From: Frankia sp. R82
Lineage (GTDB): Bacteria > Actinomycetota > Actinomycetes > Frankiales > Frankiaceae
Assembly (NCBI RefSeq): GCF_023716925.1
Contig: NZ_JAMQQG010000038.1
Location: forward strand, 1 to 35,982
Direction of reading: 5' to 3'
DNA length: 35,982 nucleotides
Below, in pieces: positions 1-2,798 of this stretch; the stretch's first letter is position 1; each line of letters opens with the position of its first letter. The notes below the pieces were generated by a model, which had not been told where the DNA came from, did no database searches, and saw only the letters and a program-made list of their open reading frames with translations. The position numbers were made by a program, and so were the translations under genes.

Positions 1-2798
1 CCGCGGGTGAGGCGGGCGTCGAGCTCGGTGACCGCGCCCAGCAGCCGGGCAGCGGCGGGTTCGGCGAGCCGGGGGGTCTCGAGCCCGGCAGGGGTGCCCG
101 CGGGGACGATTCGGCGGACCCGCTGCAGCGCCGCCGTGAGCTCGGCGAAACCGGGCCGGTCGAGCAAGGTGCGCAGGGCGGCCAGGGTGTCGGCGGCCCG
201 GGCCGGGGTGCCCGTGAGCGGGCCGAGTGCCGCCACCAGTCGGTGATCGACGCCGCTGTCGAGCAGCTGCTGGGCATACCGGCCCCGGACGAACACCTCG
301 GCGGCTTCGAGGGCCGCGGGGCTGACCGGCACGGGGGTCCGCTCCGCGGCGCGGGTGAGCAGGTCCGCCAGCGACAGCTCGGCCAACCGCGGCTGGCCGG
401 CGAGGATCGCCGCCGCACCCAGCGCCGCACGGCGCAGCCCGAACGGATCGGAGCTGCCGGTCGGTGCCGCATCCAGGGCGAACAGGCCGACGAGCAGGTC
501 GAGCCGGTCGGCCAGGGCCAGCAGGGCGCCGGGCACGGTGGCGGGCAGCGCGCCGCCGGCGCGGCGCGGCAGCTCCATCTCGAACAGCGCGGTGGCCACG
601 GCCTCGGGCTCGCCGGCACGCCGGGCGTACTCGCGGGCCATCGTGCCGGCGAGGCTGGACAGCTCGATGACCATCTGGGTGGCCAGGTCGAACTTGGCGA
701 GCGTCGCGGCGCGCTCGAGGGTTGTCCGCTCGTCACCGACGAGGCCGATCGCGTCGGCCAGCGCCCGGGCGAGCGCGGCGATCCGCTCGGCCCGGTCGGC
801 GACCGAGCCGAGCCGCTGCTCGAAGGTGAGCCGGGCCAGGTTCGCCCGGAACGTCTCGAGCCCGACCTTGACGTCGGCGTCGTAGAAGAACGCGGCGTCG
901 GCGAACCGGGCGCGGATCACGTCCTCGTTACCGGCCCGTACCAGCGTCTCGTCGACCGGCCCGTCGGGGACGGCGACGAACGCGGGCAGCAGCTGCCCGG
1001 CGGCGTCACGCACCGGCAGATAACGCTGGTGCTTGCGCATGACCGTGGTGAGGATCTCGGCGGGCAGTTCGAGGAACCGGGCCTCGAACGCGCCGAGCAG
1101 CGGTCGCGGGTACTCCACCAGGTTCGTCACCTCGGCGAGCGTGCCGGCATCGGCCACCGGGTCGATGTGCCCGCCCTGGTCGGCGGTGAGCTTCGCCGCC
1201 TGTTCGACGATCACCTCCCGGCGCGCCGCCGGGTCGAGCAGGATGCCGTGCGCGGCAAGCAGGTCAGCATAGCCCGCGGCGGTGCTCACCTCGATCGGCG
1301 GGGAGCCCGCCCGGCGGTGCCCACGGGTGGTCCGCCCGGCGGCCAGACTCGCCACCGCCACCGGCACCACGGTCTCGCCGAGCAGCGCCACCAGCCAGCG
1401 CACCGGCCGGCTGAACGACAGCGCCGGATCGTTCCAGCGCATGTTGCGCTCGCCGCGCAGCCCGGCGACCACCTCACCGAGCAGCCCGGCGAGGACGTCG
1501 AGGGCGTCGCGCCCGGCCTCGGTGCGCACCAGCGCGACGTGCTGCGCGCCACGATGGTCGACGACCTGCAGATCGGCCGCGTCCGCACCCTGACCGCGGA
1601 CGAAGCCGAGCGCGGCCTTCGTCGGCGCGCCGTCCGCGCCGTAGGCGGCCGACACCCGCGGCCCGCGCACCACCCGCTCGACATCCGGCTCGCGGGGCGC
1701 GACCTCCTCGACGACGGCGACGATGCGCCGGGGCGTGCCCGTCACCCGCACCTCGCCGTGGGTGAGCCGGGTGGCCCTCAGTCGCTCGGCCAGACCCTCG
1801 CGGACCGCCGCGATCGTCCGGGTCACCTCGGCGGCCGGCAGTTCCTCGGTGCCGATCTCGAACAGCAGCGTCGAGGGCGCCACCACCGGCGTACCGCCCG
1901 TGGCCGCGGTGGCCGGCGGCGGGGGCGCCGCGATCCCCAGCGGGTGACCGAGCTCCTCGCGCCGCTCCCGCCACAGTGCCGCGACCGCACGGGACAGCCC
2001 ACGCATCTGCGCGAACGACGTCGCCCGCTCGGTCGTCGACACCGCCCCCCGCGAGTCGAGGATGTTGAACGCGTGCGAGCACTTCAGCACGTACGAGTGC
2101 GCTGGGACGGGCAGCCGCGCGTCGATCAGTCGACGGGCCTCGGCGGCGTAGTCCGCATACATCCGCCGGACGGTGTCGATGTCGGCGTCGTCGAGGTAGT
2201 ACCGCGACATCTCGTACTCCGACTGCCCGAACACCTCCCCGTACGACACTCCGGGGGCGTACGTGAGCTCGCTGAAATGGCGCACCCCCTGCAGTGCCAT
2301 GAGGATGCGTTCCATGCCGTAGGTGATCTCGACACTGATCGTGTCCAGACTCTGCCCACCGGCCTGCTGGAAGTAGGTGAACTGGGTGATCTCCAGCCCG
2401 TCGAGCCAGACCTCCCACCCCAGGCCCCACGCGCCGAGCGCCGGGGAGGCCCAGTTGTCCTCGACGAACCGGACGTCGTGGGCCGCCGTGTCCACCCCGA
2501 TCGCCTCGAGGCTGCCCAGGTAGAGCTCCTGGGCGTTGCCCGGGTCGGGCTTGAGGATCACCTGGAACTGGGTGTGCGTCTGCAGCCGGTTGGGGTTCTG
2601 TCCGTACCGTGAGTCGTCCGGACGCACCGACGGCTCCACGTAGGCCACCCGCCACGGCTCCGGACCGAGTACCCGCAGCACCGTCGCCGGGTTGAGCGTA
2701 CCGGCGCCGACCTCGGTGTTGAACGGCTGCATGATCATGCAACCCCGGTCGGTCCAGTAGCGGGTCAGCGCCAGCAAGGCGTCCTGCATGGTCAGCAT
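1..2798 (-). CDS. glyQS: Glycyl-tRNA synthetase, alpha and beta subunits fused (3' end cut by window edge)
   Basis: Charges tRNA-Gly with glycine in the cytoplasm. Reading leftwards from ATG 2798, residues 1 to ~285 are a complete GlyQ alpha chain: YWTDRGC, QPFNTEVGAGT, RYGQNPNRLQ, QELYLGSL, VRFVEDNWASPALGAWGLGWEV, TQFTYFQQ and EITYGMER are all visible. A Pro/Ala/Thr-rich linker (about 286-309) follows, then the GlyS beta chain from LLFEIGTEELPAAE (about 310), including RRAALG and DPFGLRR-type motifs. The reading frame stays open to base 1, about 932 codons, so only the C-terminal anticodon-binding part is missing. Most actinobacteria carry the unrelated single-type (alpha2) GlyRS at this locus; fused alpha-beta enzymes are known from Chlamydia. 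An in-frame GTG lies upstream near 2828; ATG 2798 has a GAGG about 9 nt upstream. Function is very secure, the exact start less so. Confidence 0.95.
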   Translation of the reverse strand, partial: MLTMQDALLALTRYWTDRGCMIMQPFNTEVGAGTLNPATVLRVLGPEPWRVAYVEPSVRPDDSRYGQNPNRLQTHTQFQVILKPDPGNAQELYLGSLEAIGVDTAAHDVRFVEDNWASPALGAWGLGWEVWLDGLEITQFTYFQQAGGQSLDTISVEITYGMERILMALQGVRHFSELTYAPGVSYGEVFGQSEYEMSRYYLDDADIDTVRRMYADYAAEARRLIDARLPVPAHSYVLKCSHAFNILDSRGAVSTTERATSFAQMRGLSRAVAALWRERREELGHPLGIAAPPPPATAATGGTPVVAPSTLLFEIGTEELPAAEVTRTIAAVREGLAERLRATRLTHGEVRVTGTPRRIVAVVEEVAPREPDVERVVRGPRVSAAYGADGAPTKAALGFVRGQGADAADLQVVDHRGAQHVALVRTEAGRDALDVLAGLLGEVVAGLRGERNMRWNDPALSFSRPVRWLVALLGETVVPVAVASLAAGRTTRGHRRAGSPPIEVSTAAGYADLLAAHGILLDPAARREVIVEQAAKLTADQGGHIDPVADAGTLAEVTNLVEYPRPLLGAFEARFLELPAEILTTVMRKHQRYLPVRDAAGQLLPAFVAVPDGPVDETLVRAGNEDVIRARFADAAFFYDADVKVGLETFRANLARLTFEQRLGSVADRAERIAALARALADAIGLVGDERTTLERAATLAKFDLATQMVIELSSLAGTMAREYARRAGEPEAVATALFEMELPRRAGGALPATVPGALLALADRLDLLVGLFALDAAPTGSSDPFGLRRAALGAAAILAGQPRLAELSLADLLTRAAERTPVPVSPAALEAAEVFVRGRYAQQLLDSGVDHRLVAALGPLTGTPARAADTLAALRTLLDRPGFAELTAALQRVRRIVPAGTPAGLETPRLAEPAAARLLGAVTELDARLTR

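Follow-up and report, generated by a model that had tools for sequence, protein, structure and literature searches.

Why should a bacterium keep one kind of glycyl-tRNA synthetase (GlyRS) gene exactly where its relatives keep the gene of another, unrelated kind? The question is raised by contig NZ_JAMQQG010000038.1 of Frankia sp. R82, positions 1..35,982, which we analysed as one stretch of 35,982 nucleotides (the window) and whose base 1 is a contig edge. At its left end lies glyQS (3..2798, minus strand), a gene in which the alpha (GlyQ) and beta (GlyS) parts of GlyRS are fused, and it occupies the slot beside recO and uppS that holds the alpha2 enzyme in related genera. The explanation that we favour, with a probability of roughly 0.86, is that the fused enzyme, the sole GlyRS found in this Frankia, arrived from outside and replaced the alpha2 enzyme in its slot on the stem of Frankia and Parafrankia.

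The gene encodes a fused GlyQ-GlyS GlyRS, an enzyme of an already known kind. Its minus-strand frame (2798..3) is uninterrupted over 932 codons and runs off the start of the contig; the longest version begins with a GTG at 2834, and in alignments the conserved start is the ATG at 2798. The class II catalytic alpha part (1956..2789, minus strand) matches the Pfam model PF02091 over the whole length of the model (residues 4-281, 425 bits), and the truncated, tRNA-binding beta part (3..1868, minus strand) matches PF02092 (residues 311-857, positions 228-1868, 594 bits) and TIGR00211, the latter ending at model position 620 of 684. A Pro/Ala-rich linker of about residues 282-312, of which some 282-310 (1869..1955, minus strand) form the gap between the Pfam domains, differs in length and letters between relatives. 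The NCBIfam model for the fused glycine--tRNA ligase, NF011499, gives 1433.1 bits despite the truncation, against a curated cut-off of 1244 and scores of 1520 and 1490 bits for complete relatives. Complete fused proteins of Frankia and Parafrankia have 1,008-1,069 residues (1,008 in the closest, G006), so about 75-100 C-terminal GlyS residues are missing from the window protein; the C-terminal anticodon-binding domain is cut off by the edge of the contig here and is complete in the relatives. Residues R59, W116, F143, Q144, E163 and R164 of the GlyQ part are invariant in 19 aligned fusions and identical in the aligned E. coli GlyQ, and we take them to be those of the class II motifs. The enzyme would be of the (alpha-beta)2 type, with a catalytic alpha and a tRNA-binding beta part in one chain joined by a flexible linker.

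The fused GlyRS of F. canadensis (L136) is 86% identical to the window protein, and its AlphaFold model (mean predicted local distance difference test score, pLDDT, 83.4; predicted template modelling score, pTM, 0.74) has its best Foldseek matches in 7lu4 (46% identity) and the plastid GlyRS of rice (40-44%; 7xjy, 7xof and 8h1c), followed by beta chains of split enzymes, e.g. those of Lactiplantibacillus and E. coli. Structure 7lu4 is presumably the enzyme of Thermanaerothrix daxensis, whose solved structure is cited in PMC9908026 (this and the other papers given by such numbers are used here through passages of their text). Both are fused (alpha-beta)2 enzymes with the alpha-linker-beta order and the domains of the window enzyme, which differs from them in its host lineage, its genomic slot and its own Pro/Ala-rich linker. 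The fused GlyRS of Chlamydia trachomatis resembles the window system, likened from the literature alone, in its single chain, its Pro-rich linker and its U73 tRNA (PMC8464048, PMC3990555). The split alpha2beta2 enzyme of E. coli (glyQ and glyS; 7eiv/7yse) shares 52% identity in alpha and 34% in beta with the window protein, and its U73 contacts are conserved, but it is made from two genes instead of one. The alpha2 enzyme of most Actinomycetes (TIGR00389, PRK04173) has the reaction, the tRNAs and the chromosomal slot in common with the fused one, whereas it belongs to a different class II catalytic subclass and has another anticodon domain (PMC4427996, PMC4938167). Actinobacteria include members with either form (PMC4427996). 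In the passages of the open literature that were found, a fused GlyRS is not described for Frankia or the Actinomycetes; a precedent in print is still possible, and NCBIfam already names such fused proteins.

To see which GlyRS the genomes near the window carry, 58 of them were searched with both PF02091 and TIGR00389, including Frankia (g1), Parafrankia (g2) and two genera that from their family membership are probably Protofrankia (g3) and Pseudofrankia (g6). The fused gene alone was found in 18, namely 12 of the 13 Frankia and all six Parafrankia genomes, both enzymes in five (G017, G024 and G034 of g6; G046; G052), and alpha2 alone in 33, among them four other g6 genomes and G054, in which it is a fragment below the cut-off. 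Neither enzyme was found by PF02091, TIGR00389 or NF011499 in G012 (Frankia) and G027 (g6), and as both are fragmented drafts we read these as gaps. No alpha2 GlyRS exceeds the TIGR00389 cut-off of 243.3 bits in the genome of Frankia sp. R82 itself, the assembly of which is 95.3% complete; the best match (27.9 bits, another locus) covers only model positions 462-559. The Frankia and Parafrankia matches listed are of the same sort (27-36 bits, positions ~460-560 only), a region that is the anticodon-binding region common to other class II synthetases. So far as the search shows, this Frankia has no other glycyl-tRNA synthetase than the fused enzyme.

The slot was compared by tblastn of the window genes, gene clustering and Pfam. 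Upstream of glyQS in the window lie a conserved small open reading frame (ORF; 2956..3405, minus strand) and the two slot markers, uppS (3398..4195, minus strand) and recO (4539..5276, minus strand), both recognised by tblastn and Pfam. In another Frankia (G010) the order is recO, uppS, the small ORF, the fused GlyRS, pyruvate phosphate dikinase (PPDK), DUF218, transketolase, a PH-domain protein and an HD-domain protein, and in g3 (G020) recO, uppS and the small ORF are followed by the alpha2 GlyRS and then by the same genes in identical order and orientation. PPDK is missing from G005 and G002 and from the stretches of Parafrankia, where DUF218 stands directly next to the fused GlyRS. The g6 genomes have alpha2 between identical outer markers together with extra genes; altogether alpha2 occupies the recO-uppS slot in g3, g5 and most g6 stretches fetched, and it is found within about 10 kb of uppS in five of six stretches from other families (the exception is G036). 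The names glyS, uppS, recO, era and dgt stand together for Actinobacteria in a gene list (PMC2464607). The context of the fused gene was seen in the window, in five other Frankia and six Parafrankia stretches and in named loci, some from the same genomes; contig ends truncate L074 and L076, and the long-stretch comparison did not extend to G003 and G011. There is no convincing alpha2 remnant beside the fused gene in 16 fused-only stretches, the best match having E 0.004 (L073, at the start of era). The tree of flanking genes keeps the Frankiaceae together with Frankia and Parafrankia inside them, the flanks grouping by family and genus, which argues that the flanks are native and that the GlyRS gene alone was exchanged.

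Elsewhere the fused gene has other surroundings. The slot markers were tested at 105 fused loci, some of which represent the same place twice, and were present at seven, every one of them a Frankia or Parafrankia locus (recO and uppS at six, the seventh being cut short). At the 98 loci outside these two genera, which extend no more than about 10 kb to either side and in some cases stop short at a contig end, recO was never found beside the fused gene, and three have a uppS-like match (36-40%) 7-10 kb away. Neither a fused gene adjoining alpha2 nor a donor with the same flanks was seen in the loci fetched. The position in the alpha2 slot looks to be what sets the fusion of Frankia and Parafrankia apart. 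The initial annotation had described one frame with a full GlyQ, a Pro/Ala-rich linker and GlyS, and had supposed that the gene type was swapped while the locus was kept; the first is borne out by Pfam, NF011499 and the open frame, and the second by the alpha2 gene in the same slot of g3, g5 and g6. It had also allowed for a second, alpha2 GlyRS, of which the genome search gave no sign, for a stop or frameshift between alpha and beta, which the open frame of the other Frankia and Parafrankia assemblies with the gene speaks against, and for the fusion being ancestral in close relatives. The fusion does run throughout Frankia and Parafrankia, but since relatives have alpha2 in the same slot the in-place swap is real and not the ancestral state of the family.

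The swap needed no visible change of the tRNAs, since the tRNA-Gly genes have U73 throughout and barely differ. Position 73 is T in each of the 20 tRNA-Gly genes that were read; they come from fused-only (G000, the Frankia sp. R82 genome, which accounts for three; G005; G013), dual (G017) and alpha2-only genomes (G020, and two of three in G021) and from G154 of family f33. Among the matches listed there are further tRNA-Gly-like ones outside these 20, at least in G020, G021 and G013 and as a second GCC copy in G154. The genes (CCC, UCC, GCC) are identical or a few bases apart across fused-only, dual and alpha2-only Frankiaceae. In E. coli, D476 and R482 of the beta chain contact the discriminator U73 (PMC9908026), and in the alignment they are conserved as D784 and R790 of the window protein, in a loop at 429..449 (minus strand); U73 is also listed for bacteria with either GlyRS type (PMC3990555). 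With U73 shared and the contact residues conserved, either enzyme should accept the same tRNAs, and the fused one would charge the ordinary U73 tRNA-Gly set.

Across the class, the fused gene is by no means confined to Frankia. PF02091 is found in 52 of 393 genomes, one copy each, and in 31 of the 358 outside the family; 51 of the 52 frames have at least 948 codons and the remaining one (G119) is cut by its contig. The fusion had been called rare rather than unprecedented, and while the kind is indeed known, these counts do not fit with its being rare. In the phylum PF02091 occurs in 165 of 396 genomes, and among the rows listed the frames outside the class have 281-524 codons, except 1,025 in G563; split genes were confirmed in 17 of 17 fetched genomes of other classes. 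G563 (C151, L215:1357-4425) has a separate GlyQ-GlyS fusion in another class, nested among split-gene relatives. Outside the Frankiaceae, 27 of the 31 carriers also have alpha2 and four, all of f33, are without it; 16 of 20 named carriers are dual, and no alpha2 match was found in the named carriers Nakamurella lactea, Leekyejoonella antrihumi, Intrasporangium calvum and Parafrankia soli. The alpha2-less carriers outside the family are Nakamurella lactea and an Intrasporangium/Dermacoccaceae-like group. The fusion is usually an extra enzyme at another locus. Among 91 loci no neighbour that would hint at a special role keeps its position from family to family; of the neighbour clusters, the two largest (22 loci each) are of Pseudonocardiaceae type, and the loose clusters that do cross families we read as putatively regulator- and transporter-like.

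Some carriers look as if they were part of the way through a takeover. In the dual genome G115 (family f13; C82, L304:2933-4318) the frame of alpha2 is unbroken, yet of 195 columns in which 17 other alpha2 proteins do not vary it departs at 46, where leave-one-out controls depart at 0-12, which suggests a loss of function as if the protein had been released from its role. In a relative, G085, alpha2 is split over two contigs. A fused glycine--tRNA ligase with 61% identity is encoded on the linear 700-kb plasmid NZ_CP109164.1 of Streptomyces sp. NBC_01727 (L314:11980-14988), with transposase genes 4-7 kb away. In Nakamurella lactea (L209:9893-22802), where there is no alpha2 match, DUF218 and putative dgt-like and dnaG-like genes lie 6-10 kb downstream of the fused gene; the dgt-like label, used by us also for the HD-domain protein of the slot, rests in part on the HD and HD_assoc domains found. 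Here there may have been a second replacement, close to the same locus.

Where the gene came from was approached with trees. With the split genes as outgroup (63 rows) the 45 actinomycete fusions form one clade with a support of 100 in the Shimodaira-Hasegawa-like approximate likelihood ratio test (SH-aLRT); Frankia and Parafrankia are one clade inside it (100) and the g6 copies stand at its base. The window gene, for which the initial annotation had left both related actinobacteria and a distant donor in view, thus groups with actinomycete fusions, apart from the split GlyQ and GlyS of the other classes of the phylum. A mixture-model tree without outgroup (37 rows) again unites Frankia and Parafrankia (100/100), parts them from the g6 copies (98/97) and places them weakly beside Jiangellaceae and the Intrasporangium group (88/81). 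The Pseudonocardiaceae and Streptomycetaceae genera do not stay together in the fused trees. A tree of 36 rows unites the rice plastid and T. daxensis enzymes with the actinomycete fusions (100/100), away from the split genes of the phylum, and a clade of the fusions and T. daxensis excluding the plastid enzyme is rejected by the approximately unbiased (AU) test (p 0.003). In the same tree, in which sampling is thin, the rice plastid GlyRS is nearer to the actinomycete fusions than 7lu4. The tree gives no more than a hint of where this old fused lineage came from, since sampling outside the phylum amounts to three sequences, two of them incomplete.

The strongest competitor to a replacement on the stem of Frankia and Parafrankia is a single arrival already in the ancestor of these two genera and g6, the fused gene coexisting with alpha2 at another locus and moving into the slot later. 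Three g6 genomes (G017, G024, G034) do carry both enzymes with the fused gene at another locus, and the AU test does not reject the joint clade, so we leave a minor place for this early arrival and relocation. We think it unlikely, though, as both trees separate the g6 copies, which are only about 60% identical to the window protein against 67-68% for Lentzea or Saccharothrix, and as four other g6 genomes have alpha2 only. It is very improbable that the fused enzyme is the ancestral GlyRS of Actinomycetes, mostly lost, kept in Frankia and elsewhere superseded by alpha2 as a newcomer. The GlyQ/GlyS type is present in many genomes of the other classes and fusions turn up in many places across the class, but it is alpha2 that sits in the recO-uppS slot in g3, g5 and most g6 and near uppS in other families, the fused gene has no recO neighbour outside Frankia and Parafrankia, the fused clade stands apart from the phylum's split genes, and its Streptomycetaceae and Pseudonocardiaceae rows are scattered. 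An artefact of assembly or sequencing that joined two genes has practically no chance of being right in spite of glyQS lying at a contig edge, because no stop interrupts the frame in any other Frankia or Parafrankia assembly with the gene, three of the Frankia ones being single-contig, and no sequencing error needs to be invoked.

Several points weigh against replacement from outside on the stem of Frankia and Parafrankia. Their joint clade with g6 is not rejected by the AU test (p 0.618, where the joint tree scored higher, and p 0.114), and the g6 branch is long. A grouping with the copies of Lentzea, Saccharothrix and Goodfellowiella, though suggested by identity, is marginally rejected (AU p 0.049), and no transfer vehicle or donor for the Frankia gene was identified. 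In the flanking-gene tree the order in which Frankia, Parafrankia and g3 branch off is not settled, which leaves the flanks unable to distinguish a single swap from two separate ones. For all its changes, the alpha2 of G115 scores above the threshold of its family (289 bits against 243), the plasmid of NBC_01727 is typed as non-mobilizable, and an evolutionary pressure against single-chain GlyRS has been argued for in print (PMC8464048).

We still hold replacement on the stem to be the most rational explanation. The fused gene would have come from outside the descent of the native alpha2, from a fused lineage that is scattered in Actinomycetes and mostly is a second enzyme there. On the stem of Frankia and Parafrankia both enzymes most likely coexisted for a time, as they do in relatives; the fused enzyme may then have taken over the essential role, after which alpha2 would have been lost, and the fused gene presumably came to lie in the very place of the native alpha2 gene (glyS). 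So far as sequences can tell, this is a well-supported case in which an unrelated enzyme has displaced an essential synthetase at its own locus. It is tempting, but for now rather doubtful, to go further and regard the actinomycete fused GlyRS as a mobile replacement synthetase, a spare passed between genera and sometimes carried on plasmids, perhaps first kept for resistance to an alpha2 inhibitor, that displaced the native enzyme in at least three lineages (Frankia/Parafrankia, Nakamurella lactea and the Intrasporangium/Dermacoccaceae-like group), by exact in-place replacement in Frankia/Parafrankia.

Some further features of the window can be added. A 16-base repeat (2824..2875, 3.3 copies) lies just upstream of the glyQS start codon; it is not evident in six other aligned Frankia sequences, and no leader RNA or riboswitch was matched in the window by Rfam at gathering thresholds. 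The plus-strand frame 3..2612 looks like a putative antisense frame of high-G+C DNA. For the small ORF that separates uppS from the GlyRS slot there is no Pfam match at E 0.001, and the provisional label "ABM" is unsupported. The frame at 5482-6390 has a long Pro/Ala-rich repetitive tail with tandem repeats at 5964-6159, and a start that we assume to be Nudix-like. Frame 34125-35981 is long and of low complexity, and a mostly-C run of 118 bases (86% match) closes the right end at 35865-35982.

Two unrelated enzymes for one essential step have here traded places within a conserved gene neighbourhood. The enzyme itself is known; the gene-for-gene swap, together with relatives that stand part-way through it, offers a clean example from nature of how one essential gene displaces another, and the locus is more telling with its relatives than alone. 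It bears on the view that there is a pressure against single-chain GlyRS, argued in the passages of PMC8464048, as in Frankia and Parafrankia the single-chain form would be the one that displaced its rival. Among the Frankiaceae and their relatives are genomes with alpha2 only, with both enzymes, with both and an altered alpha2, and with the fused enzyme only, and the steps of such a takeover may thus be testable.

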